In this document: in pieces, positions 22,403-59,955 of the stretch
Position numbering within the stretch: the stretch's first letter is position 1
Layout of the letters: each line of letters begins with the position of its first letter
NCBI GenBank assembly: GCA_903813345.2
Contig: CAIIXF020000006.1
Coordinates: 40,062,848 to 40,126,847 of the forward strand
Origin: Owenia fusiformis
Taxonomy: Eukaryota > Annelida > Polychaeta > Sabellida > Oweniidae
Direction of reading: 5' to 3'
Length of the DNA stretch: 64,000 nt
Notes under the pieces: model-generated
Database searches by the model: none
The model's input: the letters and a program-made list of their open reading frames with translations, nothing else
What the model was told of the DNA's origin: nothing
Position numbers and translations under genes: made by a program

Positions 22403-22848
22403 ATGGAGGAACAACAAACATTTGACGCTATTAAGAAAACTTTAAATCAAGATAATTATCGCCCTGCATTAGGATAACTGCTTTTTTGAAAATGTATTTC
22501 ATGTTGTTGAGACTATTAAGTTTGTGCGTGAGAAAGACACACCTAAAAAGGACCCTGTTCCTGTTGTTACTAATGGCACTCATGACAAACACTATGCCAG
22601 GTAAATATTTGTGTCACATATTATAGCCTTTAACATCTTTTTTAATGTTCGCAATTTTCTTTTTGATTTTTTAAAAACTCTGTGTAGATTTCAACACAGA
22701 CTTAACAAACGCTATACCAGGTAAATATTTGTATCAAGTAGCCTATAACATATCTAATAATATGACACGTTTATTTTCATCTTTTTATAAAATATGTCTA
22801 GCCCTCAACACAGGGTTAAATTCTATGACTTTTGTTAAGAACTGGTAA
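22403..22848 (+). CDS. Candidate small three-exon gene with duplicated micro-exons
   Basis: Three exons are suggested by splice signals: exon 1 to 22600 (ccag then gtaaatattt), exon 2 22688-22720 (33 nt, between tgtgtag and gtaaatattt), and exon 3 from 22802 (after tgtctag). Exon 2, exon 3 and the end of exon 1 resemble each other, so a small exon was duplicated. Two frames stay open across all three exons. One starts at the ATG at 22492 and begins with a basic then hydrophobic stretch (TLFLLLLMALM), like a signal sequence; it ends TGG TAA at 22844-22849. The other is polar (REKDTPKKDPVPVVTNGTHD), ends at 22838, and joins the upstream ATG frame (22403, MEEQQTFDAIKKTLNQDNYR) if one G near 22472 is ignored. 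Which frame is used is unresolved. No family is recognised. Confidence 0.4.
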
Positions 22849-31475: not shown

Positions 31476-32818
31476 TGGATACTTTACTGCAATTAAAGGT
31501 CCATCGAGAGGAACATATCATAGACAACTGTAATTGAACCTCCAGACGTGAGCATTGGACGTAACTATTTATCCAAAGTAATTTATTTAGGACGACCAGA
31601 CAAGTTTGAATGAATTCAAAATATGAAATTGAACTCATTTTGTGAAATCTGGTTTGTCACTTATAATCTCCTCACGTTGCACAAAAACAGTTTTCTATAA
31701 TTAGCAAATACTGATCTTGAAATAGAATAATTCAGGAAATTGGATTAACTTCCTATAGATATCTTTGATATCATCCTACGATGATCCCATCCCTCTTGCT
31801 GTTCGTTTAAAACTTGATTAAACAATTCAAGTGCCTGGGAGAATGATAAGATAAATAACGAATGTAGTTTAGCCTTCAATAAAAACAAACGGATGGTTAA
31901 TGAATACCTCTATCGCGGGAACTGTACCTGTTGTCTTCGGACATATTTGCTTTACTATGGCAAAATACCTTAATCACCTTAATCTACATTATACTTTCCA
32001 TTTCATGTAACTAGGACCTAAGGGTATAAATGAGGGTTTTCTTATGGCAATGGTGATATCCAAATTCAAGATAATGCCCCTTTCAATTTCCAGACGCGGG
32101 GGGTGGTAGGGCCATCTGCGACTTGCATTTGTCAATTCGTATTATCAAAATAACTTGGCGACAAACTCACAGAGACAAAAGTCCAAATCGACAAAGGAGT
32201 AATCCAGCAGATGTCAAAACACAATTCTTTTTTTTCGCTCGATTTGTCAAATAAAAAAACGACACCAAAGGGAAAAAGTAATGGGCTCAAAACGAGGTCA
32301 GACACACAAATCTTATTAACGTTGGTTATATTTCATCTCAGTTGAATCAATTAAGTTCTCTATATTTCGACAGAAGCGCATTCTCTTGTTTATTTAGCAT
32401 TTGTATTACTAGTTTTTATCAGTTTTGCATAACTTATTTGTATTACTTAATTTGGATTTTCCGCTATACCATTCTTTCATTGACACTGTCTCTGTGAATA
32501 TGGAAAACGACACCCACATGTCGTAATTTCCCGTCACGGCCGTCCATCCTCATCAGCTCTCTTCCTTTTCCCTGGGTGGTTAAAAAACATCCGAAGATGT
32601 TGCTATGAAAACATATCATGTTAATCTTAATGTATTTTGTGTTGAATCAGATGCGGATGGATTACCCGTTAATGGTTAATTTGAGATTCAGATAGCATGA
32701 ACCTTTGATGGATTAATCGTTGCGATTACAAATGGCATTGATCTTGGAATCATCCCCCTTTATGTTGACACCGATCGTCTTTTCTAAAATTAAACATATT
32801 TGCTTGTACTTCATATTC
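31476..32818. other. No gene seen
   Basis: No convincing open frame, exon or repeat. Confidence 0.4.
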
Positions 32819-34800: not shown

Positions 34801-37800
34801 CCTATTTCAACGGCCAGTACAGCACCCCAGTGCGGAATTCAAGAGGCGTTTCTTTAGATAGACTAAAAAGAATGGTAAGTGACGTACATATGAACTGAGA
34901 CTTTCCAAGTTGACAGTTGAATTGGAACTTATTACTTGTAGACAACAGCTGTAATCTGTTTGGTGCGAAGAAACTGTACAAACAAATTATATACACTGTA
35001 ATTAGAGATGTAATCTTATTGGTTCAACAAAACAAGTGACTGTCCAATCAGATTACAGATAAATTCAGCTATAATCTGATTGGTTTAATATATAACTAAC
35101 TCTCAAATCAGATAACAGATAAGAAACAGTCAGATGACAAATTTATTTATATATAATCTGGTTTGTGCAACATATAAGTACCTGTCCAATCAGATTACGG
35201 ATAAGTAACAATCAGATTATAGATTGATTTATCTCTTATCGGATTGGTTTAAAAAATCAAATAACCGGCCATTAAACAACGTATAGAGAACTTTGCTTTG
35301 ATTTAAATTTTGTTTGAGGTTACCAACCTTCTGCAATATCGGTGAAATAGAGAGGCATGTTCAATAAAATGGGCGTCAACATAATTTACAAAGGTTTTCA
35401 AGTCCAAATATTGTTTATCACACTTAACAGAATGACCACGATCTGTTAAAAAAAACAGCGAGTGTCATTCAAAAAATCTGAATATAGCAGACAGAAATAA
35501 TAGGTGCAAATGGATTTGAAAAACTTAAGTTTGTTTTATTGTATCTCAAAAATACATTAAGATAGGAACATGTTTCGATATATCCATTTGTAGTTCTTAA
35601 TTGGTTAGCTAATTATAAGGCATATTTCAATGGGAACAATTCTTTAAAATATGTAAAACAAAAATATATGAAGTACAATGTCATGCCAACATGCTATTAA
35701 CCTCTAACTCAATCTGAATCCTGTAATTTAAACAACCACGACACCATTGTCGTATGTGCAACTTTTTACACGCTAATTGAAATGCATCTATTACAACTAT
35801 TCTTTAAATATGGCAAACAAAAAAGATATGAAGATCAATTCCATATTTACAGGATATTAACCTCGAAGTCAATTAATGTCAGTGAAGTTTAACAACGATG
35901 GGACCATTGTCATATACGACCTTTTAGACGCTAATTGAAATGGCTCTCAAATCGATCGTGGGGTTCTCGTTAGTGTTGTCCAAATGCCTAAAACAGTTTA
36001 CATAAGTAAGTTGAGTTCATCTCTACCAATATCACAATTAAATAAATCAGAGGAGAAGTTAAACAAAGAGGATTGCTCCATTTCCTTGGTCTATATAATC
36101 TGTATGTTTTCATGGCAACCAATATTTATCACTGGGAGACATTTAGACAGTCTACTGATTACCAATTGTAAATTTACATTTATCAGCTTTAAAACAAAAC
36201 CTTATCCAGGATAATTGTATGAGATTTAATTAAAATTGCATTTTTGTTGTTTTTCTTGATTTATATTGCCTTCACAATTGCACTCGCGGATATAATTAAC
36301 TTCGACGTATGCTTCGTCTTGGCACCCACAAAGGGACTGCTACCTGTAAAATACTCTTTCAGCTCCACCAGGGTTTCTTCCTTATCATCCTCGCTACCAC
36401 TGGGAATAGCTCTCATATTATTTTATTCAATTACAGACAAGATTCTAGATGTCGATAAAACACTACTTAGTCACCTGTTTGATAATCGGCAAATCTGAAT
36501 CAAGTGAATTTGCAAAGTTCGTGTTTGTTTCAACGTAGCTCTCATTAGGTGCATGATAAATGATGTCATTGCATGCAATTTTTACCCATAATGCACCTGA
36601 ATGCTACGCAGACGACAATGCTTCCGATTCAATTCATCGCATGCAGTTCATACAGTGTCCGATTCAATTCTATTTGATTCCGCTAATTAAGACGAAAGGT
36701 AAATTTGCAGGGTTGTAATGTAACTTCAGCAATTACAATCTAACTAATCCTAAGCACACAATTTTTATTAATGATGTGTAAATTGTGCACCGTGACATTC
36801 TTTCTGAATGGCTCGTGTTATAATCAGAACTCTTCCATTCTAAAGAATTTATGGGTTTTGTGTATCATTTGGATCGTCTTGCGGGGTATAACTTATAGTA
36901 TTCCGTATCATGTTTTCTTAGGCAGATTTCACAAAAGATATTGAGCTAAAATTTGTTTGATGTGCCATCCACTCCCCTCCATACGTTTGACCTCCTTAAC
37001 TCCCCCATTGAATTACATATGTACGTGTTAAAGCCTCTTTACGTTCGAATCTTTAAAGTCAAAATTGATTTCAAAAAATCTCCTCCATTGAAATAACTAA
37101 GGAGGGGAAAATGATTTTCAAAAAATACTTTGAAGCACTGTAAGTAGTATTCAGCAAGTAAACTAAATACTTGGTGTACAATTTTTGACCTATTGTACTT
37201 AAGGAAAAAAATTGGAAAAATTTGGTGGTATTGAAAGTAAAGTTAAGTAACGTTTCCATCAATATTATACGTAATTTCATTGCAGGGTAGGTAATAAAAA
37301 TTCAAGCGTAAAGAGGCTTTAACATATATGTGGGAGCTAAGGTGGTCAAACTTATATAGGGGAGTGTATATCCTGAATATGTAAGGGTATCCTGTCATAT
37401 GAATCCATTTCTGCCTTGCTCTCGATTGTGGCAAATTGGAGCACGTAATGTAAATGATCACAGCTCCTGAACCAGTTGACTGCTTGTATTGAAACTTTCA
37501 GGAACAAATTTTCATAGAACTGTCCTGATTTGTGTAAGATTCCATTGATGTTACTTGTCTTGTTTAGGAGATTTTGCCTACTTCAATGGTCTCCTTTTTC
37601 CGGTCACCCTGTAGAATTGCTGATTGGAAAATATGTATGGCCACAGCATTCACTGCTAAAACACTAGATGACCTGCCTGAATAAATGATGGCACAATTCA
37701 TCTCAAAACGAAATTTCAACAATTGCAATTTTGTTTAATAGTCCTTCTTTCCGACGACTCAGAATTACTGATGAGGAAATATGTAGGGCCAAAGTATAAA

Positions 37801-40800
37801 TAAAGCTACGTTCACACCAACGGCGCTTTGATGGCGCTTTAAAGCGGCTTGTAAAGCGGCACCAAAGCGTAACAAAGCTTGATTAAAGCGTTTGGGTCGT
37901 TATAGGTCGTAGAAAAGTTCGGAGTAACGCGGGATATTCGGCAAGAGCGCCAAACATTTTAAAGCTACTTTCACACCAATGGCGAATGCCACGATCTAAA
38001 TCGGCGAGCAAAGCGCTGTCATTTATGTTTACTTTTCTAAAAATATCACGATCTCCTAAGTAATGTTACGCTCTAATAAGCTCTGATACGCTCTGATTTC
38101 CCGACTTGTTACGGTTCCTCACGCTATGATCCCGCTTCGACCCAGGCTTTGTTACGCTTAACATCAGGCTTTGATAAGCTTTGGTAAGCATTATTACGCT
38201 TTGGTGCGATTATGACGCTTTAATCAGGCTCTGATACGATTGCCAAGCTATGTTGTGCATTTTAGAGATCGCCTTTACCATGACGCTTTTGATCAAATGG
38301 CTGTATACAGATGCAGTAGATCCATAAAACCATTGCATCTGTGACTCGAGAAGACGATGGCAGAACAACAAGATCCAGAATTTACAGATGGACCAGATCA
38401 TGACCTATCTGAAGAAAACATGATGTTTGTCGTACGGCGTGAAAGAGCGTGAGAAAGCGTGAGGAAGCTTGTCAAGCGTAACAAAGCTTAACAAAGCGTT
38501 TCAATCCTTGATTAAAATCGTGTCAGATCTTCATGCCAGATCGTAGCAAAGCTTGAGACATCTAAACGAAGCGTGTCAAGTGGTAACATACCGTGAAGAG
38601 ACTGGGGTCCCCGCTTTGAACCAAGCTCTGTGAAGCTTTCCTACGCTTTGGGTCAAGCTTTGCTGAACTTTGTTACGGTTTGTTAAGCTTTCTCTCGGCG
38701 CTTTAACCAATTCGTAACAGTTTAACAATTTTTGGCGCTCTTGCCGAACATCTCGCTTTACTTCGAGCTTTTCTACGACCTACTACGACCCAGACGCTTA
38801 ATCAAGCTTTGTTACGCTTTGGTGCCGCTTTACAAGTCCCTTTAAAGCGCCTTGCTCGCCGATTTGAAGCGTGGCATTCGCCGTTGGTGTGAACGTAGCT
38901 TTACTGAAACCCTAGATTACATGTTTAAATGGCACAATTAATGACACATTAAGATGGCACAATTTATCTTCACTTTATTGCTTCACTATGTTTTATACTT
39001 TATTTTATTATATGCTCAAGTGGACCAGGATACATCTAAGTTTTTTTTCTAAACTGCCACTGTTGGCGGTTTTAAACTTTTAATGTTAAAATAACCCCAT
39101 ATTCATACTTGGTTTTAATGAATCCTAGCTGAGATCTTTATATTATGAAAATAGTTGTTCTTCTTCTTTATTCTTTATTACACGCCTCAAATAACTCTTT
39201 GCATTATACACATCATTGTTAAAGTACATCCTCGTCAATTTCAACAGCTTTTTTGATTAATCAACAGGTTCGCTTATCATAAGCCATTCAGTAATCATTA
39301 TATCATCATGACATATACGTCATAAGCTATTGACAGATAATTCCCAAATTATGCCCTCTAGCTTAGTTTCTTGGAAAAAAATCAAAAAATAAAAGATTTG
39401 TGATATTTATCGCTGAAAGACTCCCCGGAAAAATGGTTCAAATAAAGGTCATGAGCCTAAAAAAGAATGTATTATTTTTTGCAAATAAATGACAAGGAAA
39501 AAAGCTTACCTGTTACTTAAAAGAGATTTTCATTTCAAATCGAAGCAGCATTATTGTGGTTTCAAAATTATGTAAAACATAGCGTGACTTCACCGGAAAA
39601 TAACCCCCTAGAACCATCATATTTTGACAGATTTTCACTTGACTATCTAAAGAGCAAAAATCCTCTCGACCCCTAGTCTATTTGTTCTACCTACTTATTG
39701 CATCATAAAACATATAAATAATGCTCGTAGAGAATCTTTACCCCTTTTCTCTGATAAATTCCCATTTTGTATTTTTGAGACAATCTAAAGCCATTAGTAC
39801 CTAACACCCAAAGGTAAAATTGTTTTTTTCCATCAACGATATTAAAATGAACCCAAGATACTTTTTTAATGTATCAATGCTCATATTATGTAAACATTTA
39901 AAATCAGACACTTGGAAAAGAAACATTTATTTTCGCTATTTATAAATAGTAAGCTCATATTGTATAACATATACTCAATCCTTGATTAAGAATCTCAACC
40001 TTTAGAAATACACACCTGTACAGTATAAGTATCAAGTTTAGAAATGTTATTGACACTAATTTGCGATTAAAAACCTGTTTGCAACTGATGCATTTGTTGA
40101 AATTGCCAAACGTAGACAGGCTCAAAGAGATCGGGTCTCCTAAAACACAAATGGAGTAACCCCTTGGTTTTTTCGTGTCATTTGATTTAAAAAAGTTTGT
40201 TTATCAACTAAAAAATTCTTAGGCTTGAATTAATTCGTTTACAGTATCATTTTGACGATTGTTCCTAGCCATGAATTTCCCCTTTCATCGGTAGAAATTC
40301 AAAATAAAATTCAAAAAGCCCGCTCAAATTTGTTCCAGTCTGAATGGCTATCTCTTTCATTTTCAACGGATTGTTTTGGCTCAGAGAAGCCATATTTATT
40401 ACTAATAAGAGGTTAAATATAGATAAATCACCAAAAATCATAGTACATTGTTTTCGACTTATTGAGTTCAATTCTGAAAGTTGCTTGTTCTGTTGGTTAT
40501 CCTGTTGATTTCCTCGATATATTTGTGATATTTTGCTTATGATTTGGTCTCAAGATGTATCTTAGGTATACATGATGTTTTATGAGCAATTATATGGGGA
40601 CATTACTGATTGTCTAGAATAGAAATCTGGACGACTGGATCTTTTTAAGTAAATAGTCCCAATATACATGTATTTAATTTCCTGTTGTCAAACTTAGGGG
40701 AAGTGTATATAACAGGACTACATAACATCGCATACTATTACTAAACACTTCTATCTTGCTTTGTGTTTATACTTGTACATTTTGTTTTTACATTGCTGCG

Positions 40801-43800
40801 CAACAGGGGCTTCGGGTAAGTTGTACTATCGTAATCACACTTAATAAAGACACATACCTGCAATTCCGGTTTTATTTCAATCGTCACGTAATCACTATGG
40901 AGTACCTATAGCCATAACAATTGTTATCGTAATTAAATGGATGCAACGATCTACAAATATCTGTATGGATGGTTGGTTAAGCATTAATCGAATGGTTATA
41001 TATTTTTTCTCGATGACTTTGATAGGTGGAAATAATAAGGGGTATTTTAAGAAGCATTAATTACAACCGTTATCGTCATGATAATTTCTTAATATTGGTG
41101 TTTTAAATAATAATAATTCAATGCTTTATTGTAATCACACACTCGCCCAAATATAACACAGAGTTTGATTTGCTTTAATATTGAACCATGAAAAAATAAC
41201 TCACATAGAAAAAAGCATTTGAAGTTGAGAGATCATAAGACATGCATGCACATGTTAAACAAAGTGCATGTTTTTAATTACTGTTGATTTAAAAGATGGC
41301 GACACTTCCATAAAAAATGAATGTATCATGTTATACAAACAACTTTGATAAAAACTTGATATTTCAAGTAAGAAAATATTTTTTGATAATTTATTGTAAG
41401 CTTTGATGTGGTCTATTTGAGCTGTTGTTGGTATCAAATGAAAGATAAGGTTCTTATCAATACATTGGACATACTATGAAATTCAAATGAAATTCTTTAT
41501 TTTGCCCAAAAACGTTGAACATACGCCAAGTGGGCCTTTAACCTTCCTATTATGTAGAAAAGTGTCCCACGTGTCGATCGATGAAAATAAATTCAATAAA
41601 TCTCTACTAAGAATTGCCAATTTCTTGCTGAGACTATGAAGCGCTCGATAATTAGTGTCGCATCCATTTTGTTCCTATAACAGTCGTCGTGGAGTCGTTC
41701 TAACTCTTAATTATAACGTAGCTAACAGATAATTTGCGAAATTGAACAAACTCATTGCCGTGTGTCATGACCAAATTTGTTTTTATCTTATTTAATTGGA
41801 ACGTTCAGATGGTAAGTTAGAGCGTTCTTTCCATATTTTTTGATTGTCTGTAATTGCATGTGAAGTCGAAAGTTTACCTACGTCAGAAATATTGTTGTTT
41901 TGTTGTTGATTTCGTGTTGTGTTCCTTGTTTTATACGTGTTTAAGTAATGTTTCAATTTGGATGGGACGGATTTTGTATTGATCCCTTACAATAGTTTAT
42001 TGGCTTCTGATTACTCCGTGCATGTTGTCTGTTAATGTTGCCATTTTATCATTAATAGGGTTTAACCACTCCCACGCCAACCGCTATACATTTTATCATT
42101 GACGTTTCTTCTGCCCTCGCAACCTTTGAATACACATTTTGAATACGTTCAAACAGTTTTTCTGTAGAATTATCTTAATGACATAACATGTTAGGATTTA
42201 TTATCATTGAAATGTTTCTCGCTTTCTCATTGGATAAGAACCGATCACATGATTAAAATATCAGGGCGTATTTTATAGTTTCCTGCAGTTTACAGCTACA
42301 GCTTCGTTTTCAACTGTATACCACGGAGTATATACCACGGTAGAAAGTCACAGGCGTTCAGAATATTAGCAGATGATAACGATTTTTTGTTGTGACGTCA
42401 CAACAATATTGTAGAAAATACTTGGATACGTATGGCAACAAAGCTCCATTGTTATGACGTCACAGCTTATATTTGTAGAATTAGCATAGGTACTCATAGC
42501 AACGGTGTATCCGTTGCCAGTTGTTGGTGTTTATAAACCAGTGATGTCACAAGTAAACTCACCTTGCACGTGTGACTTTTGAGGATGAAAAATGGCAATA
42601 TCTTGCATGGGACTATAGGCCTAAGAGTGGTTATTCATATTCACGTTTTTCTTTAAAAAATCAAAATAACTAGCTTTTTGGAGCAACGTTAACATCCAAC
42701 TCAATAAATGATTTTTTGTTCTATATTCATAAGCAGGTTCAGCATAAAATAATTATAAATATAAAAGTGAACTTGATAGGAAAACCAAGACAATACAATG
42801 TGTTTCTGAATGATGAACGATTGAGAATAAAATGGGACTTTTATTTCATTAGGTCTTTTACACAATTGAACAGCAGTTCACACTGAGCTCTGACCATTAC
42901 ATGTGACAATTACATAAACTATTTTGTATTCAGCATGGAATTCTTGGTTTCATTTGCAATTTTACAGCAACATAGACAATGATTAGGATTATTTTATGGA
43001 CATTTTGTGTGGCTATAAATTAATTCTGATCTATCCTTGTCTTTGTTAAATGCTTGGTTAATTTTCTGCACATTAACAATTAAAATAATCTAAATCACAT
43101 GTTGAATTGTATGGATTTTATTTGTCAACATTAGTACTATATATTATGATTTCGATTAGCCACTGCTGAGATTTCGTACTTTGAATTGTGTAACTGCGTT
43201 TTCATGAGGAGTCGTGGGTCGTGGACCGACTTTTCACACCAGCCCCTAACGTAAAAACTCATTCTGTTATTTTCTCAATCACTAGTATAACTGCATTTTA
43301 ATAAATGCCTCGTCACCCAAATGAGAGCTTATAGATAAACCTCCAAGTGCTTTATAGGTAAAGCATAACGAATGCATGTAATGGATGTTACATAACTGTT
43401 CTACACTCCCTCTATAAGTTTGGCAATCGAAATATTTCATTGAATGGCGATTCTAAAGCCCAACAATGCCGGTTAATTTTGTTTCTTAATTACAATAGTT
43501 GAAAATATATGTCAATGTTGATGACTTTTTATCTGAAGACATAATTAGCATGCTGTGATGTATGGTTCTAAACGGAATTTCCAGTTTTCATATTTTTATA
43601 GTGGGGTTGTACATCGCTGTTCTATGTCATATACTGTGTTATAATGGCGCATTGAGATTTTAGGTTCCCCCATTCTAATGAGTATAGTCAATAGATACAA
43701 GATTTATCAGCAAGTTCATCCATTTAAACAATAGCATGCATACTTACTTCATTTGGGTACCCTTCATTTGTATTTGTATATTTATTAAACCACAAATCAA

Positions 43801-46800
43801 TTTGGCACATAATTGCTTTTTTAGTAGATGAGTCCCCTAAAGTCTGTTCTCGCATTACGTTTTTGAATCTGCTTCTTACTTAGACGCTACAATATTGTAA
43901 AATGAAATAACCAACGCCAGCGTTTTACATTTCCGATTTCCTGATTAAAAAGTGCAATAGTCTCATATTTTAACCCTAATGTGTACAATGTATGTTTCAT
44001 TAAACTAATGAAAAAAGTTGAAGAGTAAAGTACCATATTGTTGGTCATTCAAAGCTCTCGAGGGGAGTTAAAACTCAAAAGGAAGGTCAAATGGGGTCAA
44101 AAGTAGGTCAAAGTAACATAGGGTCGAGCTTTTTTCGCGATTTCTTTTTACTTTTTTCAGTCAAAAACAACATATAATGCCAGATAGGGTATGAATGTGA
44201 GAGATGTATATAGTATCTATCTTTTTAGGACAAAAACCGTGGGTTAATACCTTTCTTAGACCCAGAGATAGGTGAATTTCTACAAAACGAATAAAGAAAT
44301 GGTTATACTGTTTTGTAGACATCTGGTAAACACGTTCAGGACCTCCCAGAAAAAAACTCATGGATATATGATCACTGGTTTTTGAAAAAAACATTTTCAA
44401 TCAAATTATTTAGATCAAAACGTATCTCAGTCAATGAAAGTTAGATTACCTTGTAATGTGGTTTGTATGAAAGCGTATTTACTATGGTCTATATCCAAAA
44501 GGAAGTAAAATGAACCAGCTTATATTTTTGGTTCTAAGAAACCATAGAGATAGTGTGATTCTCACGCAATTTCTGAAAAAATCCCAAGGTCCCTCTTTTA
44601 TCTGTACCTATAGGTACTACGGTTATAAAAAATAGTTTTTCTTGGCAGAGAAGTACCGGGGAAAAATCCTCCCTCTCTGTACACATTGGGGTTAAAGACG
44701 AGATCCATTTTATTCATTTTTGCTATATGGAGTGCTTTTTGTTCTACCTTTTGGCCTTTTTCCTTTTCCAACTTGTCAAACACCTACTTTTTGTTCACTT
44801 TCATTAAAGGAATTTTCAAATTTGCTAGCCACTCCAATTTAAATATATCTAAATGTCCTTGATTCAACCTAACCGAGTTAATCTAACTGCAAAATACGAA
44901 CACCATAACGTTAAAGGATACACATGGCAAAATTTGAAACAATACATTTTCTTGATCAATATGAATGAGAATATTTTTGCCGTTCCGTTAATCTGACTCG
45001 CATTTATACCCCACGTCTCTCATTGAGCACCACCAGAGCAAGAAAGGACGCATGGGTATATATACCGAATTACAAGAGCTGAATGGGAGGTTGAGAGCAC
45101 CTTCAAATGGACGCCTTCGAAGAAGTTTCTCCTGTTGAGAATCGAATGAAACGTTACAACTTTCTATGCAAGAAATAATCGGATTTGCAATAAACAAAAT
45201 TGACTATCAACACTTCCTTAATCAGAGATCATGGAGCAATACATCGCAAGAAATTGCATCGACTATTAAGAGAAGGGTGAAATGCCGTTTACATTCATTG
45301 ATTTGCCTATCAATGATCATTAAAGATTTGTAGAACGGATATAAAATTAGTTTTCTTACATGGAAAATAAGTGAACAAGTTCAGTCTTCATTGCACCTTT
45401 AGTAAGTTTAATACCATTTATAAAGGGTACACCCACTGTTTAAATACGATACGTGTCACATGGACTAAACAAAAGAACAATTGTACAAAATGGTTTCGAG
45501 ACTAGCACGTGTAAAGTGCTAACCAATGTGAATCCAAAACCCCAGGATACAAATCTAGGATTTAAGAAAGTGAACCATGTAAGCTATGATGAAGATCAAT
45601 ATTTTACGACAAAAGATAAGCCTGGCTGCTTTCGTCGCCATCTATTGACATCCTTTGAATGAGAGATTTCAATCTGAGCCAACGATGAAAAAACAATGTT
45701 TCTCCATGTCCATTTGAAACACTTAACATTCCGGAACAGTTAATATTTACCATAATACACCTTATTGAAATTATATTTCTGTTTTCTTGTTCATGAACAA
45801 TAATGACAGGGTATGATTTATGAATAGTACAACTTCTATCAATATCGTTTCCTGCACGTCCGAGTGTTTATACGATTGCATCATGGGCAAATTTCTGTTG
45901 TTGTTTTCATTCCATAGATAATTTTTTTTCAAGATGACATTATGTATAATTCATAATGGTAATACAAACAATTAACCTATTAAATATGGCCAGAAAATCA
46001 TATGCTTGTATTCTCATTTTGATTCACAAGGTGTTAGATACTCCAACTTTACCTTGGAAGTCAAAGATGTGAATTCTTACAATTAGATATTTTGATCAAT
46101 TTTATTTAATCCACAACTCATTCACATGCATGGTTTGGATTTTTGAGGGAAATTGGTCAAATACGTTTTAACAGGACAAAACATGGTCGTCTGAAAAAGT
46201 TCATTTCTAAAAACTCAATTTCCAAATCTAAAGCTTCTTCGTTTTTATACATCATTTCTTTTAATAGTTTTGCGATGAGTTGCCAAAACTATATCTATCA
46301 TATCATATCTTCTGTTCTTCTTGTCTTTAAAAATATCAACGATACTGTCAGGTCCAAAATTGTTGATTTATGTTGAATTATTAGTATTATTAATTATTAT
46401 TATTATTTCATATTAACTAATAATATGTAAAATATACTAATGTTAAATCGAAGACAAACATAGTAATTTTGGTGACAATATCTTTATCTTGTAATGTAAT
46501 CATGGTGATTGTAATTTGCCGAACTATTAGTAGCATTATTGTAACTAATTACATGTTAAATATATATAATAGTGTAAACATAGTACCGTGTATTTAGAAT
46601 GTGACTATATCTATATCCGGTATTGCTATCATCGTACTTTGCTAGGGTACCCGCTTTAAATTAACAATGTTTGTTTTATTTTTTCAGATGTGCCAGGCTC
46701 ATCCTAGGGTACGTTGATTTTTGAGTTAAATCAAACATACATACGTGGCCTCTGTAATGTAACTCACATAATATCCTTGTTAAGGTTATAGAACCCGTGT

Positions 46801-48442
46801 TACTTGTATTGGTGTGACTTTTAGATGGAGGAGGTTATCTTTTCCAGAATTTTCGTAAATTTAACTACCTGCATTATATTAGAGACTCATTATTCAGTTT
46901 AGTTCAATATATTATTTTTTACCCATGATAACACATTGCTAAACATGTTATTTTGCTTTTTGTTTTCCAACTCTTAATACATGTGTTTCTGTTACAGAAG
47001 CTTACTTATTGCGTACTTTTTTTGTTCCAGAATTGTCCATCTGGGGTACGTATCACATTTATTTATATTTGACAAGCATTAAAAATCAGAGAGGTGGATA
47101 CCTTGAACTGTCGATAACTCGACCTACTTCCATTAACCTTGAAGTGCAACTCATATCCTAAAACAATATGAACGTATAAATTATGAGTACTATTTCGTTA
47201 CACAAGAAGGAAATTAGAGGTTCCTTGAGGCTAGTATTCTAAAACCTTCGCCATGGGTGTATGACGTTGTACAGCCCCCTACAGAAGTTTGACAATCGGA
47301 GTTAACCATTTGGATCACTCATCGAAGCCTTTTAATCTTCATCATCATTTGTCGTATTTTCGATTTTTTATAAGAAACGAAAATATGATTTAAACATTTT
47401 TAGGCTTTATTATACTATCCAATGACAACTGTTGGTTGTCAAACTTATGGAGGTGACTGTATATCAAGATACGTTCATTCATGGACTCGAAGAAAACGTA
47501 ATTGTCCATACTTTAACTCGTCCCCTGTGCCCATTACCTCTTGACAAACTATAATACCATACTCGGGCCGTGAAAACCCCAATATACAATTTTCCACTGG
47601 GTAATTTATATTTATTCAAAGCTATATTTTTTCTTACAGTATAGCAAGAGAAATGCGATTCAGGTAAGACAATGATTACGATGGGATATTACAGTTGCTA
47701 AAATTCGTTCACAAATAAAAATCTCTATAAAAGTAATAAATGTAACTAATAAATAAAACAGTTTGGCGCTCACACATCGAACCAAATCGAATTTACACAT
47801 CCTCCTGCAAAATATAAAAAGCTTAATTTTCACTATTTGTTACAGCCTACTTCGCGGAAACTAAGCATGTACGATGACTTCTATTGGTGGATTTGGAAAC
47901 TAAAAATAATTCTAGATAAGGCTCCAATTCCCGAGCTCCCAATAGATTCTGATATTAATGGAGAATCCTATATTGACTGGGAAAATTTGGAATCCGTTCC
48001 AACCAATGTAGATAATTATGATACGGTAAGTGCAAGTTTATCCCTCTCACATCTTCTTACCCTTCCCCGAGCGCACATGCCCGATATTTTTGTCTTATCT
48101 GCATTTTTGCGATATAGCTCAACTACAAATGGAAAACCGTCTCCAATCTCTGCAAAATGTTCCACTACACATTCAAATATTTGAACTGAACCATGCTGAA
48201 ATGCTTTTTCTTATTTCATGTCTCCTAATCATTTTTTCTATTCATTGATCGCGAGACTCATAGTCATAGGTCAAAAGAAACCGACTATATGATTTTTTGA
48301 TTTAATCGATTAATTGGACCTCGATGAAATCACTTCATATATAGCTCGATTTCGCTACAATTACATTTCTTTTAATCCTAAACAGATTAAAATAGTTTGG
48401 GATCAACGAATCTATGGATATGGTTTAGAAATATGTCAATGA
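34801..48442 (+). CDS. Candidate micro-exon gene (5' end missing)
   Basis: Exons inferred from splice signals: 34801-34874 (74 nt), 40807-40815 (9), 46688-46708 (21), 47031-47045 (15), 47640-47663 (24), 47846-48025 (180), 48386-48442 (terminal). Acceptors are pyrimidine-rich tracts ending in ag; donors are gtaagt, gtacgt or gtaaga. Every internal exon after the first is a multiple of three and is joined in phase 0, and one frame stays open to the TGA at 48440. Peptides in order: YFNGQYSTPVRNSRGVSLDR plus LKRM; GLR; MCQAHPR; NCPSG; YSKRNAIQ; a 60-residue acidic exon with YDDFYWWIWKLK, ending NVDNYDT; then IKIVWDQRIYGYGLEICQ. The first visible exon needs one base from an earlier exon, so the start and any signal peptide are upstream and were not found. 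No family is recognised. Symmetric tiny exons would allow in-frame skipping. A MITE lies in the 47046-47639 intron. Confidence 0.5.
34940..35258. repeat. Imperfect 60-80 bp tandem repeat rich in ATTGG/CCAAT
   Basis: taatctgattggtt and tccaatcagattacagataa recur in alternating order about four times (near 35012, 35072, 35152, 35207), giving a degenerate tandem array. It lies in the intron after the first micro-exon gene exon. Confidence 0.75.
35637..35950. repeat. Two-copy duplication, about 162-bp period
   Basis: attctttaaaatatgtaaaa...attaacctc...accattgtcgtatg...acgctaattgaaatg at 35640 recurs at 35800 as attctttaaatatggcaaac...attaacctc...accattgtcatata...acgctaattgaaatg. Confidence 0.85.
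36261..36416 (-). CDS. Short coding-like frame of 51 codons, unknown
   Basis: On the minus strand an ATG at 36416 opens a frame to TAA at 36261. It begins MRAIPSGSEDDKEETLVELK and includes EYFTGSSPFVGAKTKHTSK, a composition more protein-like than neighbouring frames. There is an upstream in-frame stop. No domain is recognised; it may be a fragment of a dead element, since a dispersed repeat motif lies near 36580. Confidence 0.22.
   Translation of the reverse strand: MRAIPSGSEDDKEETLVELKEYFTGSSPFVGAKTKHTSKLIISASAIVKAI
36965..37371. mobile_element. MITE with about 75-bp inverted arms, tacactcccct family
   Basis: Left arm ccatccactcccctccatac...gtttgacctccttaactccc...gttaaagcctctttacg pairs with the right arm, which read in reverse complement is gatatacactcccctatata...gtttgaccaccttagctccc...gttaaagcctctttacg. 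It is the longest-armed copy of this family in the window, about 407 bp, and is noncoding. Confidence 0.85.
37801..38903. mobile_element. 1.1-kb foldback element made of degenerate 10-bp units
   Basis: The ends aaagctacgttcacaccaac and gttggtgtgaacgtagcttt are exact reverse complements. Inside, degenerate units of about 10 bp dominate: aagcttnaacaaagcgt-like on the left and far-right reverse strand, gctttgatacgcttt-like in 38050-38270. A second end-like block (aaagctactttcacaccaat) near 37970 resembles the terminal sequence of the right arm better than its own, implying rearranged or duplicated ends. A short nonrepetitive island with a small frame lies at about 38270-38440. Superfamily is not assigned. 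Confidence 0.88.
38357..38452 (+). CDS. 31-codon coding-like frame inside the foldback element
   Basis: The nonrepetitive centre of the element carries ATG at 38357 and TGA at 38450-38452. The frame begins MAEQQDPEFTDGPDHDLSEE and ends VVRRERA, with the last few codons already in the gcgtgagaaagcgtgag repeat. Acidic, protein-like composition contrasts with the surrounding repeats. It could be a captured exon start, a relic of the autonomous element, or chance. No homologue is recognised. Confidence 0.28.
   Translation: MAEQQDPEFTDGPDHDLSEENMMFVVRRERA
38966..40800. other. No gene seen (would be intron of the micro-exon gene)
   Basis: AT-rich, no supported exon or repeat. A solo MITE end occurs slightly further on at 40681-40710. 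Confidence 0.4.
40681..40710. repeat. Solo right terminus of the tacactcccct MITE family
   Basis: cctgttgtcaaacttagggg followed by aagtgtatat matches the right end of the complete copies. No partner left end was found within several hundred bases. Confidence 0.6.
40807..40815 (+). CDS. 9-nt candidate micro-exon
   Basis: gggcttcgg lies between a T-rich tract ending caacag and a consensus donor gtaagt. It would add Gly-Leu-Arg in phase 0. It is the only link between the exon at 34801-34874 and those after 46688, and is supported by splice signals alone. Confidence 0.35.
41132..41541. repeat. Dispersed repeat, copy B (inverted relative to 10996-11432)
   Basis: Reverse complement of the 11-kb copy from cacacactcgcc to agtgggccttt, about 410 bp, with indels. 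Shared blocks include acatgcatgcacatg and aaagtgcatgtttttaatta. Confidence 0.9.
42387..42512. repeat. 62-bp tandem duplication with paired CRE palindromes
   Basis: Each unit starts with tgacgtca (42393-42400 and 42455-42462), followed by atattgtagaa / atatttgtagaa and tatggcaacaaagc / catagcaacggtg. The tgacgtca palindrome is the consensus CREB/ATF site. No nearby promoter is identified, so function is unproven. Confidence 0.7.
42513..45443. other. No gene seen
   Basis: No supported gene. A solo tacactcccct-family left end lies at 43402-43430 (tacactccctctataagttt). The minus-strand frames at 44161-44400, 44598-44783 and 44988-45197 have no domain. Confidence 0.4.
45444..45662 (+). CDS. Coding-like open frame without ATG, unknown
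   Basis: Open from the stop at 45441-45443 to TGA at 45660-45662, with no ATG at its head. It contains GLNKRTIVQNGFETSTCKVL and FKKVNHVSYDEDQYFTTKDK, ending CFRRHLLTSFE. Codon and residue make-up look protein-like. It could be a terminal exon (no strong acceptor is visible) or a fossil of a mobile element. It lies in the intron between candidate micro-exons but in no proven relation to them. Confidence 0.25.
   Translation: MRYVSHGLNKRTIVQNGFETSTCKVLTNVNPKPQDTNLGFKKVNHVSYDEDQYFTTKDKPGCFRRHLLTSFE
45663..46687. other. No gene seen
   Basis: AT-rich intron-like sequence ending in the acceptor ttttattttttcag at 46687. Confidence 0.4.
47268..47463. mobile_element. MITE, tacactcccct family, inside a micro-exon gene intron
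   Basis: Left end tgtacagccccctacagaag, then tttgacaatcgg; right end as reverse complement gatatacagtcacctccata, then agtttgacaacc. About 196 bp. It lies between the 15-nt and 24-nt exons without touching their splice sites. Confidence 0.78.
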
Positions 48443-48521
48443 AAAACTATTTGGTTGCTTTAAGGAAAATAATTCGATTTTCGGGAAGAGAGGTACTAAG
48501 TAAAGGAACGTGCTCATTCCA

Positions 48522-48886
48522 GGACGGTGTTCATTATAGGAGGGTGTTCACTTTAGGAAGGTGTCCATTATGGGAAGGTGTTCACTTTAGGAAGGTGTTC
48601 ATTATTGTGTTCACTTTAGGAAGGTGTTCATTATAGGAAAGTGTTCACTTTAGGAAGGTGTTCATTATAGGAAGATGTTCGCTTTAGGAAGATGTTCATT
48701 ATAGGAAAGTGTTCACTTTAGGAAGGTGTCCATTATGGGAATGTGTTCACTTTAGGGAGGTGTTCATTATAGGAAAGTGTTCACTTTAGGAAGGTGTTCA
48801 TTATAGGCAAGTGTTCACTTTAGGAAGGTGTTCATTATAGAAAGGTGTTCCCTCTAAGAAGGTGTTCATTATAGGAAAGTGTTCCA
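48522..48886. repeat. 36-bp minisatellite (18-bp half units)
   Basis: ggtgttcactttaggaaggt alternates with gtgttcattataggaaagt about twenty times. One half unit is shortened near 48601. Because 18 is a multiple of three, a frame runs through it by default, so the open frame at 48397-48636 is not evidence of a gene. It starts about 80 bp after the stop codon of the micro-exon gene and may lie in its 3' untranslated region. Confidence 0.95.
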
Positions 48887-49737
48887 TTGAACAGATTTCA
48901 CGGTATTTCTATGTATCAAGGACTTTTGGCCATCAAACCAATTTTTATATCCTTAAGTCTTTTTTACATGTGCACGTACTGCCCTCTATATTTATCAGTG
49001 ACCATCTAGAATACGTATTTATAGATATTTTGTTTTCTTTTCTACATTTAAGCGTTCATAAAATATAACATGAACAGTAATTCACACCAATAGTTACCAA
49101 TGGTGTATTTCTGATAATGAGAACTATAATATTCACAAAGGGCATGTGATGTAAAACAATCCATTGCTGTTTTATATAACAAACCCTTTCAAGTTGCTTT
49201 GTTGTATATTTAAAAGCATCTGTACGGTCATTAAATACTGTGTGACAAATTATCTCAATATCATGAGTGTACAAGCGATATGTTTAAAAAATGACTACCT
49301 CAACGTTGAAGGTAATTATTTATTGATTAGATCCACGTGGAAAAGCCTGTTTTGTCCGAAGTGCTAGATGATTTCGATCTAAAAATGCCCCATTCCCATG
49401 AACTTTAAAACCAGAGTTCATTTTTTAAAATGGTGTTACCAGTAGTTTGATTTCCTCTGAATATGTCGGGTCACGTGTGTTTAAATTGTTTCCATTGTTA
49501 TTGATTTGATTTCCAAGGTTGTCAATGTGCAGTGCTTTTGATCTCAATTGTTAATTTTCAAAAGCTCTTTAGGTGATTAGGGTGTTGATGATTAATTAGG
49601 AGTGCAAAAGCCGGGTATTTGTTCAATATTCCTGGAACTTGTTATTACTCCAGTCAAAATGCAAAAAAAACATTGATCGAACGAGATTAATTTTATTGTA
49701 CTATCAATTTGATATTCTGTTTTTCAGATATGAATTG
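48887..49737. other. No gene seen
   Basis: AT-rich; short overlapping frames on both strands near 49056-49367 without domains. Confidence 0.4.
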
Positions 49738-49839
49738 TCTCATCCAATGCCATGGAAGAAATTCATGTCTGCAGTTCATGAGGAAAGACAAAACGAAAAA
49801 ACAGTGAACACTGATTTCCGACAAGAATTAACGTGGTAA
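49738..49839 (+). CDS. Orphan terminal exon, unknown gene
   Basis: The exon follows a good acceptor (gatattctgtttttcag) and runs to TAA at 49837. In the frame with one leading base it reads YELSHPMPWKKFMSAVHEER then QNEKTVNTDFRQELTW. The frame with two leading bases is also open and ends at TGA near 49804. The first needs a preceding exon with a phase-2 donor, which the candidate exons upstream do not supply, so it may be an alternative 3' end with an undetected exon or a separate gene. Confidence 0.35.
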   Translation, partial: SHPMPWKKFMSAVHEERQNEKTVNTDFRQELTW

Positions 49840-50367
49840 TGGCACATCAATATCTTCGAACAATGAACCAAAGAGCAGTTAAAACAATGAGATTAACATC
49901 ATATTAATTGTTAGATATCCGTTTTGACCGCCATTTTTAGCAAACCGTTGAGCAGTACTAATGGACCAAGTATTCTGACAATAGGAGTAAACGCAATATT
50001 GGCATACAAATCTATATTTTTAATTTGCCGAGGTCGATACATGGCAATAGATACAAATGTCATCACCATTTTGAATTGATGTCAGATAAACAAAATCATT
50101 ATTTTGCTCTCAGTATTTTTTGACTTATGGTTCCTATATGAAACTGATGAAACCATGAAGAATACGTTTGTTGTGATTAAAACATAATGGGGATGTTTAC
50201 CCAAATAATGTTTGAACAACATTTGTAACACTCTTGTTGGGCCATTTGACGTAAAAACTTTAAATATTGGAATAATACGTGCCGTGTAATGCAAATCCAT
50301 AAAACCAAGAAGCTGCCACCAGTACAGTACAACATACCTTGAAGTCATCAATTTACTATTGCATAAA

Positions 50368-50645
50368 GGATGTTGTTCCATTCATAATAACGTTATTCCA
50401 TGCATAAGGACGTTGTTTCGTGCACATTGACGTTATTCCATGATAATGACGTTATTCCAAAAAATAACGTTATTTCATGCAAAATGACATCATGAGAACA
50501 AATCTGCATTATAACTTTTTATCATGCGTATTTACGTAGCTCCGTGCAGAAAGACCTTATTATGTGTATTAGTGTTCAATGCATGATGACGCTATGTCAT
50601 GTATAACAACGTTATACCATGAATAAGAACGTCATTCTATGATTT
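50368..50645. repeat. Degenerate minisatellite of about 20-24 bp units
   Basis: Units based on aacgttattccatgcataa repeat irregularly (aaggacgttgtttcgtgcac, ttgacgttattccatgataa, acaacgttataccatgaata). An unrelated segment of about 80 bp interrupts it at roughly 50490-50570. Confidence 0.85.
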
Positions 50646-51317
50646 TCCATAAAATAAAGATATGTTGTGCCCTCGAAAGGATACGGATATTCAACTCTAT
50701 ATGTTGTTAAATATCTGAGGCACTTTCATCAGATGACTTTCTTTAACACTTGGCCTTCTCGGGATATCATTATGGAAGTTTTCATCGCAATACAATGAAC
50801 ATATGTATAGTATCCATACATCTCAATGTTCCTCTTAATGTCAAGTTTTGAAATAAATGTAAATCATGTAAACATCATCTTCTTCGGTTTGAATTAATTG
50901 TAATAATATAAAAATGAAAGATGTATTTTGAATTTAAAAAAGTGATTGGTTTGGTAAAGATATAAAACCAAGGCTAGACATATCTTGAGCAATCTTGCTG
51001 ACAATAGGAGTTTGGGTGTTTAGTTTGCATATCGTCTTCCCCTCTAAATACTCGAGGTCTCCTTACAATGTGATCATGATGTAGCATACCGATAGGCTAA
51101 ATAGTTCGTGATTTCAAGACCAGACATGGGTAAACGTCCCGGTAAACGTGTGTATACATTTACAATAATACAGTTAAATTCAAAGCCAACTGAATGTCAA
51201 TCCATTATGTGCTGTTTCATTCCACGAAGGGGTTATTTCCCGACTTTTGTATAAAGTCAGAGCATATATGCAGTCTAAAGAATATCGCATTCGTGAAATG
51301 AATTATCCGTAAGGTAT

Positions 51318-51422
51318 TGAGTCCTTGGCTTAATTATTTTCACACATTGCAAAAATGTTTACACAGAATCATTGAAAAGAATGAATGTTTGTGCAAAGAA
51401 ATGTTTGCAAGGGATGAATTAT
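51318..51422. repeat. Third copy of the 30.6-31.5 kb repeat (partial)
   Basis: ttattttcacacattgcaaa...tttacacagaatcattgaaaag...gaaatgtttgcaaggg matches the ttttcacacattgcaaac...gaaatgttttgcaaggg block near 31008-31095. Confidence 0.7.
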
Positions 51423-53438
51423 GTAAAAATAGTTTGCTCTATTTCCCTCAATGGCAGTCACTATAATTTGTAGAATATCGAACCTACCTTAAAACAAAGA
51501 TAGTAAGCAGGAATATTACCAAGGAGGAACTGGCTGAATGTGACACCTATAATCAGGATAAGTATTATTCACAGAGGTATTTTTAGGTGGCATCTACCAA
51601 TTGCTCATATATAGGTAGTAGTACATGTGTATGAATTAGTCGAGCGACTATGACAGTGCGTTGTCGTAGCATCCAACATCCTGGCATTGTACTGCAAAAC
51701 ACTCCACCACCATGATGATAAGCAACTACAAAGGTTTGATTTGATAGAATATATACTTTTCATGTATAATTAATACTAATTTCCCGCCGTTTTTTTAGAG
51801 ACACACTATACCCTTCAAACAACTATAAAAAAGAGAATATCTCTAGTAGATCTACAAGTGCTACTTATTTAATATTCCCCAATTTGTTATTCGACATTTA
51901 CCAAGTGCATTACACTTCCAACATTTGAATCATGTAATGATATGTTACTTTATATATGCTTTTATTCTGATATTGTTTATTACGATATTTTATCAGGATT
52001 GGGAATCTGAAATCAGAATTGCCTGATAAATCGATTTAGCTGGAATTAACACTATGATAACACTTTCTTGTTATTTACCCTGGTATGGACATAGACGTAC
52101 CTTGACTTGCAACGCTCAAGTTTGTCGCAAGTTCAATATGTCGCCGTAAATGTAGTTTCAATTCATTAACATCTTCATCTTATATGTTTTCATAATACAG
52201 TATAACAAACAATTTAAACTACTGTACGTTGGTACTAAACCGTACACACTACTTTTAATGACTGTAACGAATCAACACGTGGGTTTTCCTCTTGATTCAC
52301 AAGTTTCAACTTCGTATTCTAGTCACTTTGGACTCAGAAAGTCATTACTTTGATGAGTTGAACAATATTGAAGTAACAAAACAATATCATGTGTATTATA
52401 CACGGTAACATTTATTTGATTAATTTTATTCATACATTTTGAAATTCAATTAAGAGTTGCGTGTTCTAGTCGTGCTTTGAAAATAATTTTTACATAGCAA
52501 ATGGTCATAAGTGGAAGTAAATCCGCTTGGGAATTTGATTTATTAATCCACTTAAATATAGTATAAGTGACAGCGCATGTTTACAAGTTCTATTCAAATC
52601 AAGATAATGAATGTATTAATGTTGTTTTTATTATTCAGCCAAAAATTAGTCAATTGCCTAATGTTTAAGGCTGCTAGGGAAGCGATTGATTTTTACACTT
52701 TGAACCCTTTAGAAACTTACATGGGCTCAAATCCCTAAAAATTATTGTTACATGCCCTCATAAAGGGATATGTCCATGAGGAGTAGATCAGCAATGTTAG
52801 TTGACAAAATCTCAGTCAAATCTCTTATTGTGTTTTACATCTATTTTTGCCCTTATGCTATTGTAGAATCACCGTTTGATAACAATGTGCCACATGCCAC
52901 TAATTATAGTGTTGTCGTCGCCCATTGATTCTGATGCATTCTATTCTTCACGGTTCAATATTAGGTTAGTTGTTGCAATACACCAAGACAATAATGTCCA
53001 ATTCAAGAGGAACAGCTATTTGTTCATATTGTTAATTTGTAATCTTCGATGGTTGTGTTTGCCCGTGTAGTGTTCGTCTTCCAGATTTCATAGAACACCC
53101 ATCTTTGGACTGTCAAGGAAATAACATTAATACATATTAGAAATGACTGGTGATTAATATTACATACAAGGCATGATTGATGATACATGTATAGAGATTT
53201 CGGTGCAAAGCATATGGTGATCACAAGTCTGCAGGATACGATGATAGATCGATTGACCTTGACCAGCCAGTGAGTGTAAATTTTTAGAAACTGACTTGAT
53301 GAAGTTGTCAACTCATTCTTTTTAAAAAGTTATGTTCTTTCAAGATAAAGGAGGAACATACCATCTGTGCCTTTTCGTAACAAAAAAACTGACTCCTAAA
53401 ACAATGATCACTGGGTATTTTAATTTACTACACCCTAA

Positions 53439-55484
53439 TTAGTATCTTTGAAGACTAAAAGGATACAATTCCAAATATGAAGGTACACAGACTGTCTCCT
53501 TCTTAAAGTCCACGGGGTTTCTAAGCTTCTGCAGTTGTTCTTCATACATTTTCAGTGCATCCTTCCTCGGAAAACCGTTGCCCTGGAAACAGATAATTGT
53601 TTCCTTGTAAACGCATTTAAAACAAACATATATTTTGTGCATCACTCATCAGATATGCGTTTCCTTGGTGAACGGATACGTGCATAGGATACGTGCCTGT
53701 TGCCTTGGGAACACATTTATTTCTAAACAAACATCGTCCGTGTATATTTTATCAGATGTGAAAGCATGTCGACACACTTTAAAACAAAATTTGACAACGC
53801 GAGTATCGACGTTAACATCAGTGGTGCTAGTGTACAGGGTGTCCAAAAAGTATATTTACAATTTCATGACAAAGTCTTTGTAAAATGTTATGACTTTTTT
53901 ATGGGCATCCTGTATATTTCTATACCTGGGTGAAGTATTTGCCGTGTGGTGACAATACGTCCATTGACAGGTCGAGTATACGCCGTAAGAATTCCCAGAT
54001 TTCTCCTAAAAAAAATATCAATTACTTATATACACTGACACGGTCGTTGTATATTAATATACAATGACCTTTGGGAAGGTGTGTGTTATATATGTTGTAT
54101 TTTACATAATTATTATATATACAGACAATGATTTCTGCTACTTGAGTATAAGGTAGTTTAATAGGTTCAACTTAAATAGGGTGACATCTATGTGCTGGTA
54201 CTTTAATTCGAAGCACATATAACAGCCTGTTTATTTATTTAAAGCAGAACTAATGGTTGGCTCTCAGTTCATCTCAATATATGTAGCTTTATGTGTGATT
54301 GACGAAATAAAATTGAAACCTTTTAAAGAATAAATTAGGTTAACTGAATATATTGAAAAGAATAATACAAACTGACCCACTGACATAGTTGATGGAGATA
54401 GCCATTTTGCATCAAGTATACCGGAAGTGTGAAATCATATCGACGTTAGTCGCAATATTGTAACCCAAGGAAGATGGTAAAATATGCCCCACAACATATT
54501 CTGACAAACTCAATAATCGACCAACTCGCTTTATTTAAGCATAGTCATTCATTCCAGCAACACAATTCAAATAGTTTTGATAGTGTAATACCACTTTAAT
54601 AAGCTGATAAATACAAAATATTGTCACAATGTGACTCCCGATCTTGAAGAGACTATATGTAAATAACACCAGAGACTATTGATTGATTTATGATGTTTAA
54701 TGACTAATTAATTGATAATTGTGACATGTTACCACTTTACACCCAATCCTTTATGTACTGTGTATGTCTCTTTATTGTATTTTAATGATTCCTTGCCATA
54801 TATAGGATGGATATTTTGATGTTAACCGCAATATTTGATTTCAAAATTAAAAAGTAACCCCATCTCCAATTCTGCTCAATTACGATGGCAACTTCCGGGC
54901 TATGTTTATAATCTTTAACTGTTGAGCTCTAGAATTGTATTATATTTAAATTCCATTCCAAATTGTACATGGTGTAAGATTACTTCAATGGAGTTATAGT
55001 CATATGCGATGTCATTTGCATTAAATGTGTATGATCAGTACAATTCATGGTGATTTCAAGTACACGTACATACATAAAGCAACACGACTTCCAAATTCCT
55101 TGGGATTCAAATGAACTTCTTTAGCCTAGAGTTCCCAAGCTAATTGCACCAACGGGAGTACATATGGTTGGGGAAGTACCCCCCTTATGAACTTTAGGGT
55201 TAAACGTAAAAATAAATTGCCAGCTCGAAACTGCAGTTCCCCTGACATTCCATTCACTAAGATGACAATGAAAAAAGTACATGTTATCAGATATAACACC
55301 ATAACCAGTCACAATGACCAATTGCACTTACAACATTACACGAAGTACTCAGATATGCCACAGTGCACTTACCAGTTGGCTCTGTTGTACAAGGGACAGC
55401 CGTGAGATCGTTGATGACGTAATCAAAAACTTTGCCTTCGTTCGAATACTGCTTCAATAACGGTATACAATCTTCAATCAAGAC
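53439..55484 (-). CDS. SMS: Spermine synthase, last three exons
   Basis: The enzyme transfers an aminopropyl group from decarboxylated S-adenosylmethionine to spermidine, making spermine in the cytosol. Exons on the minus strand: 55484-55373 ([31 protein letters not shown]), 54005-53926 ([26 protein letters not shown]) and 53582-53439 ([37 protein letters not shown], stop). Phases agree (1 then 0); acceptors are ttgtactag, ttttttttag and tgtttccag, donors gtaagt and gtatag. The Asp in VINDLTAVP corresponds to the catalytic aspartate of aminopropyltransferases. The final residues after YLEL differ from the vertebrate tail. The first exon visible starts in phase 0 right before VLIEDC, so the N-terminal domain and the GGGDGG cofactor loop lie upstream; they were not found to the window edge. 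A short MITE lies in the last intron. Confidence 0.95.
53835..53912. mobile_element. 78-bp mariner-type MITE in the last SMS intron
   Basis: Ends cagggtgtccaaaaagt and acttttttatgggcatcctg are inverted with mismatches, and both are flanked by TA (53833-53834, 53913-53914). The element ends 13 bp short of the exon boundary at 53926, within 12 bp of the splice donor. Confidence 0.72.
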
Positions 55485-56829: not shown

Positions 56830-56897
56830 GTATCGTAAATACAGTTCAAAGTCGCTTGAGTTCAACGTTCGGATACATCCCAAACACAAGCAGCAAG
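56830..56897 (+). other. Candidate untranslated first exon of the TLR gene
   Basis: gcagcaag is followed by a consensus donor gtaagg at 56898. The next good acceptor, gattgtttttcag at 57521, stands 12 bases before the receptor's start codon. The 5' limit given is approximate; no TATA box is evident. A 5' untranslated exon followed by a single coding exon is common in mollusc Toll-like receptors. Confidence 0.5.
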
Positions 56898-57020
56898 GTA
56901 AGGTTTTTAAGTCTGGTTTCAAAATAAGAAATGAATAATAATATCAAAATATCTATTTAATGTTTTCTTGTGCAAAAAATCTTACTTTCTTTGCTTCAAA
57001 CTCCCCAAAGGTCCTTGTGA

Positions 57021-57411: not shown

Positions 57412-57533
57412 TTTGACAATCAAGGATGGGGATTATAATTAAATATCTAAGTATAACATGTTCATCTAATAATACAAATTAAAAAAATACTAAAATAAAG
57501 TATGGGCCGATTGTTTTTCAGTTCAAACCTAAG

Positions 57534-59885: not shown

Positions 59886-59955
59886 AAGAAAACAAAGAAA
59901 ATTCTGGAGAGATCTGAAATTAGAGTTGGGCAAGAAAAAATTTGATATAAAATAA
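59861..59955 (+). pseudogene. Displaced TIR box 3 in another frame
   Basis: In the frame shifted by one base, 59863-59955 reads CLKWSEDERKQRKFWRDLKL then ELGKKKFDIK and a TAA stop. This is the normal end of a TIR domain, with the box-3 FW motif. It overlaps and follows the receptor's last codons (its TGA is at 59883-59885). The in-frame protein jumps from AYGEKQ straight into this region, so roughly 35-40 codons between box 2 and box 3 were deleted with a change of frame. This is read directly from the two frames; the size of the loss is inferred from typical TIR length. Confidence 0.85.

Follow-up and report, generated by a model that had tools for sequence, protein, structure and literature searches.

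The described systems that come closest to the locus considered here are the micro-exon genes (MEGs) of parasitic flatworms, the neural microexons (SRRM3/SRRM4, eMIC) and, for the product, secreted peptide precursors. For Hymenolepis, a MEG was defined for working purposes as a gene with seven or more exons, of which half or more are shorter than 70 nt and divisible by three, including a run of four (PMC7653826). Fuller descriptions have micro-exons making up most of the coding region (PMC4350168) or the central part consisting largely of microexons (PMC4671649), and in both the signal peptide is carried by the 5' exon (PMC4350168, PMC4671649). MEGs are described as apparently restricted to flatworms (PMC4350168), and exons of their size tend to be missed by standard gene finding and read alignment (PMC7653826). 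Treatments of micro-exon genes in the literature searched concerned flatworms, and no annelid micro-exon genes were found there, which is not proof of their absence. Exons that depend on eMIC are described as combining a weak acceptor with a long AG-free zone and nearby TGC motifs, and those of the fly have weak donors and short introns (PMC8797185).

The present locus lies in a window of 64,000 nt, the whole stretch of DNA that was analysed, from the annelid Owenia fusiformis. It is read, with a probability of about 0.6, as a lineage-restricted and apparently single-copy protein gene on the plus strand of an annelid chromosome, extending from 22492 to 48442 (Table 1). A signal peptide would come from the first exon, and the remainder of a small secreted protein from a 74-nt exon, four symmetrical micro-exons of 9, 21, 15 and 24 nt, a 180-nt exon and a short last exon. 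The part of the gene formed by the 21-, 15-, 24- and 180-nt exons is very likely real.

Gene model

Table 1 Features of the predicted gene (positions in the window; scores from a generic animal splice-site matrix)
Feature	Position	Strand	Remarks
Proposed first coding exon	22492..22600	+	ATG, long basic n-region, hydrophobic core LFLLLLMALM (signal peptide-like), phase 1 end CAG/gtaaat
Optional 33-nt exon, DFNTDLTNAIP	22688..22720	+	phase 1 to phase 1; acceptor 4.8, donor 8.8
43-nt block, diverged copy of the 33-nt exon	22802..22844	+	GTAAGA donor; frame-breaking if included
74-nt exon, AYFNGQYSTPVRNSRGVSLDRLKRM	34801..34874	+	phase 1 to phase 0; acceptor 10.1, donor 10.0
9-nt micro-exon, GLR	40807..40815	+	acceptor 4.8, donor 11.8
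21-nt micro-exon, MCQAHPR	46688..46708	+	acceptor 9.3, donor 8.5
15-nt micro-exon, NCPSG	47031..47045	+	acceptor 8.6, donor 8.7
24-nt micro-exon, YSKRNAIQ	47640..47663	+	acceptor 8.3, donor 11.8
180-nt exon, acidic C-terminal part of the protein	47846..48025	+	acceptor 7.8, donor 10.8
Last exon, coding part, IKIVWDQRIYGYGLEICQ + TGA	48386..48442	+	acceptor 6.5

An initial annotation of this DNA had proposed seven blocks, measuring 74, 9, 21, 15, 24, 180 and 57 nt in order, and these were recovered: AG precedes each of them, GT follows the first six and the last ends in a stop codon. Their join translates as YFNGQYSTPVRNSRGVSLDRLKRM-GLR-MCQAHPR-NCPSG-YSKRNAIQ-PTSRKLSMYDDFYWWIWKLKIILDKAPIPELPIDSDINGESYIDWENLESVPTNVDNYDT-IKIVWDQRIYGYGLEICQ-stop, and its frame had correctly been called open, with no stop until the TGA at 48440-48442. 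The lengths of the internal blocks had also been described as multiples of three, which is the case for 9, 21, 15, 24 and 180 nt and not for the 74-nt block. Because the length of this block is not a multiple of three and it is entered in phase 1, the 5' end had been missed; the extent first given to the gene holds for the seven blocks, and the gene probably begins some 12 kb farther upstream.

All 16 combinations of the four micro-exons leave one open frame with a single terminal stop, in agreement with the earlier statement that skipping them is frame-neutral. The introns after the 21-, 15- and 24-nt exons measure 322, 594 and 182 nt, and the 9-nt exon is flanked by two introns of 5.9 kb. 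Acceptor-like sites at 46646, 46998 and 47622 (plus strand) precede the 21-, 15- and 24-nt exons by 18-42 nt, and all would give in-frame extensions; the one at 46998 is a second in-frame acceptor of the 15-nt exon and would give a 48-nt version. No further micro-exon was adopted in the large introns, where strong sites, symmetry and an open frame were not combined well enough, and 45546-45578, 25693-25710 and 32094-32105 are possible extra micro-exons.

Downstream, a 17/34-bp minisatellite (48504-48884) begins about 60 bp past the proposed stop codon. A canonical poly-A signal is absent before 49230, where the nearest A[AT]TAAA past the stop is found, beyond the minisatellite. A Pfam match with E 0.3 at about 48471-48605 sits at the minisatellite and was taken as chance.

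Splice sites, clustering and coding signal

Splice sites were scored with a generic animal matrix, not trained on Owenia fusiformis. On this matrix, the six donors rank in the 99.1-99.9th percentile of the window's GTs and the acceptors of five of the seven blocks in the 98.1-99.9th percentile, those of the 9-nt and last blocks reaching 89.1 and 95.9. Strict micro-pairs, defined as an acceptor and a donor both scoring at least 8 and enclosing 3-30 nt, number four on the plus strand of the window (the 21-, 15- and 24-nt blocks and 32094-32105) and zero on its minus strand. An order-2 Markov simulation of 60 x 64 kb gave 0.52 on average and never more than 2. At looser cut-offs there are 9 pairs per strand and no strand difference (simulated mean 5.3, maximum 10); since the strands become equal, it was concluded that looseness hides the signal.

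As a genomic control, 18 stretches of 10 kb were taken arbitrarily from the same genome, both strands being counted (360,000 strand-bases). Eight pairs in it pass an acceptor score of at least 7.5 and a donor score of at least 8. Three of the eight are both in frame and open; a single 15-nt sequence, present identically on the two strands of one stretch, accounts for two of the three. None of the 18 stretches holds two passing pairs on one strand. At the locus, three independent pairs lie within 976 bp, for which the Poisson probability is about 9e-8 per given place, with cut-offs set after the site was seen. The 21-, 15- and 24-nt blocks are thus far above the genomic control, a comparison which, with its post hoc cut-offs, serves as a guide only. 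It had been argued that chance agreement of four tiny exons is unlikely; against the genomic control this applies to the cluster of three and not to the 9-nt block alone, for which 0.26 equally good pairs are expected by chance in its 11.8 kb.

Codon scores were trained on the long open frames of the genome, some of them transposon frames; the average GC content is 34.5% over 20 genome stretches. Among open windows of the same length, the 180-nt exon ranks at the 99.1th percentile. The percentiles of the other parts are uninformative (74-nt exon 68.5, four micro-exons together 46.6, last exon 49.2, first exon 58.9), and the claimed frame is out-scored by another in the micro-exons and in the first exon. 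Since the codon scores of the micro-exons carry no information, the case for them rests on splice sites, clustering and phase.

These results bear on the possibility that every block arose by chance, as splice-like sequence in non-coding DNA, or that they are the remains of a dead gene. Nine micro-pairs on both strands at loose cut-offs, most exons having no coding signal of their own and no homologue in Pfam or PDB would all be expected in that case. The strict count of 4 against a simulated 0.52, the clustering and shared phase relative to the genomic control, the codon score of the 180-nt exon and the full join without a stop nevertheless make it very improbable. That the exons belong to a repeated or mobile element can be given next to no weight: a dispersed repeat does lie at about 47338-47471, in the intron that separates the 15-nt exon from the 24-nt exon, and has nine further genomic pieces of 71-88% identity, but none of the nine covers an exon. 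Exon queries against the genome each found only themselves, the 180-nt exon giving one match, itself, in a search that may miss weak matches.

The proposed 5' end and a probable local duplication

For the first exon, ATG-initiated frames with a hydrophobic core of at least 2.8, a donor of at least 8 and a phase 1 end were searched, and 22492-22600 was the sole candidate on either strand of the window. The same filter returned three candidates in 360,000 control strand-bases; as these three sequences resemble genuine signal or membrane segments, the result suggests that the filter is specific. The ATG of the candidate exon is the first after an in-frame stop, and a genome search at E 0.001 turned up no further copy of the segment. 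The signal peptide was judged by hydropathy only, on the candidate exon, and its hydrophobic core is unusually far from the start. In the predicted transcript, this exon would be joined to 34801 across a first intron of 12.2 kb.

Translation might instead start at the ATG at 34872-34874, in which case the earlier part would be 5' UTR, the 22492 exon would be unrelated and a cytoplasmic protein of 101 aa beginning with MGLRMC would be made. Such a start would require no phase-1 upstream exon, and it finds some support in the end of the 74-nt block, AAAAGA-ATG, followed by a codon beginning with G, as well as in the uninformative codon scores of 22492-22600. It is held to be unlikely, however, in that no stop interrupts the claimed frame of the 74-nt block, which has a higher codon score than the other two frames, and a candidate signal-peptide exon of matching phase exists upstream.

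In the preferred gene, which starts at 22492, the first exon is followed by related sequence. Over 32 nt, the end of the 33-nt block and its donor copy the corresponding part of the first exon with 91% identity. On its acceptor side, the 43-nt block has 72% identity to the same side of the 33-nt block over 50 nt, acceptor included. Inclusion of the 33-nt exon keeps the frame, and that of the 43-nt block leads to an early stop. The region 22688-22844 appears to have arisen by tandem duplication of exon sequence on the spot, and one of the copies can still be used.

Splicing of the micro-exons

The 21-, 15- and 24-nt exons have strong sites and are followed by short introns, so that their inclusion is probably routine. 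The 9-nt exon is the likeliest to be regulated because of its weak acceptor, a long AG-free zone (89 nt), upstream TGC motifs (at -13 and -10 from the acceptor) and the two 5.9-kb introns around it. The combination of AG-free zone and TGC was found in 9 of 2373 acceptors of similar score, the features having been picked after the exon was seen. In all three acceptor features the 9-nt exon resembles eMIC-dependent exons, whereas its strong donor and 5.9-kb introns set it apart from them, and the 21-, 15- and 24-nt exons lack most eMIC features. A Pfam search for SRRM_C gave no match in the genome and none in any control genome either, and is therefore uninformative.

Constitutive splicing of the predicted gene has about an even chance. 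The fuller form of this reading, in which the micro-exons are real but constitutive, one protein is made, and small size and symmetry reflect old intron positions rather than the making of variants, is placed a little below even. It agrees with the strong sites on three of the four micro-exons and with the short introns after those three, which fit constitutive use at least as well as skipping; moreover, an ordinary annelid gene, Platynereis Dlx, is described with two microexons (PMC3199776). It accounts less well for the symmetry of all four micro-exons, each in phase 0, and for the context of the 9-nt exon, which resembles that of regulated exons.

Comparison with flatworm micro-exon genes

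The predicted exons number seven in the initial annotation, eight with the first exon and nine with the 33-nt exon, against the minimum of seven in the working definition. Short symmetrical exons make up 4/7 in the former model and 4/8 or 5/9 in the present one, 4/8 being exactly at the threshold of one half; the last exon was left out of this count on account of its UTR. A run of four is present (9, 21, 15 and 24 nt) and depends on the 9-nt exon, the weakest of them. Measured against the fuller descriptions, micro-exons form 14% of the coding sequence, rising to 20% when the 33-nt exon is included, rather than most of it, and 21-29% of the part between the first and last exon, which is thus not largely microexonic. 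The genome is also not that of a platyhelminth, as it has four matches to the annelid erythrocruorin linker domain; all four exceed the cut-off of the family, one of which does so only together with its neighbours in the reading frame.

What the locus shares with flatworm MEGs is a series of consecutive tiny symmetrical exons, a proposed 5' signal peptide, longer 3' exons and a small product lacking domains. It differs in that there is no gene family here and in its annelid genome, and the likeness is one of predicted layout. The locus is MEG-like in layout yet is not classed as a MEG, since it sits just at the threshold of one working rule and falls short of the fuller description; the resemblance to flatworm genes that had been drawn at the outset stands to the same extent, for the layout and one working definition and not for a gene consisting mostly of micro-exons.

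Predicted protein and possible peptide

The predicted protein has 162 aa, or 173 with the optional 33-nt exon, and would probably be secreted. The joined protein has no Pfam match up to E 10, and its best two PDB matches (E 1.4 and 1.6) were taken as chance, which is in keeping with the earlier remark that no family is recognised. Rfam gave nothing at the gathering threshold, and five peptide strings of the protein had no occurrence in the literature text searched. On these comparisons with Pfam and PDB, neither giving a convincing homologue, the product appears to be an orphan protein.

One KR closes the 74-nt exon and another lies within the 24-nt exon, with MGLRMCQAHPRNCPSGYS between them, all residues of which except the first come from micro-exons. 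As a further inference, possible but rather doubtful, the protein may be a peptide precursor that would be cleaved behind LKR and at YSKR to release MGLRMCQAHPRNCPSGYS, in which a single disulphide is possible. The possible signal peptide and the KR on both sides of an 18-residue stretch with C-x6-C recall secreted peptide (neuropeptide) precursors, from which the protein differs in that no amidation signal stands immediately ahead of a KR, the peptide is not repeated and Pfam gives no match. A vasopressin-like reading of RNCPSG was dropped on account of the wrong cysteine spacing and the lack of a neurophysin part.

Neighbouring elements

A Pfam scan of the three plus frames of 6001-49600 and of one frame of 49001-63997 gave no convincing domain on the strand of the gene; a sub-threshold zinc knuckle (E 0.0039) lies at about 12586-12630 on the plus strand, within a 111-aa open frame. 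On the plus strand at 57483-59885 there is an open frame of 800 aa with leucine-rich repeats (Pfam LRR_8, E 9.7e-37) and the start of a TIR-like region below the cut-off (E 0.16), inside which the frame stops. Since the TIR-like region is interrupted by this stop and no continuation is evident in the three plus frames to 60500, the frame is read as a putative Toll-like receptor that was cut short or has decayed.

A non-LTR retrotransposon at 2749-5886 (plus strand) has a 1045-aa frame with endonuclease and reverse transcriptase domains, and a 29-bp tandem repeat of 29.5 copies occupies 712-1568. The intron before the 9-nt exon contains a long fold-back at about 37794-38910, made of imperfect inverted repeats with arms of 32-81 nt that are 85-96% complementary, which is probably a non-autonomous DNA element. 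In the flanking DNA, a frame with a fibrinogen C-terminal domain (E 2.3e-28) was found in the 10 kb upstream of the window and one with an olfactomedin-like domain (E 7.1e-16) in the 10 kb downstream.

Biological meaning

The most far-reaching interpretation would be that of an annelid secreted peptide gene in which a disulphide-closed peptide comes almost wholly from four micro-exons and is edited by splicing, MEG-like yet independently arisen, with an extra micro-exon gained through tandem duplication of the first-exon end. This is a speculative proposal with little likelihood; if true, there would be up to 16 forms of the released peptide, which would differ in whether they contain the cysteines or the KR cleavage site downstream. 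The predicted gene is a useful test case because exons of such size are often missed by standard gene finding and read alignment. If it is transcribed as predicted, it would place a MEG-like layout outside the flatworms, and the origin of such a layout without parasitism would be open to study.
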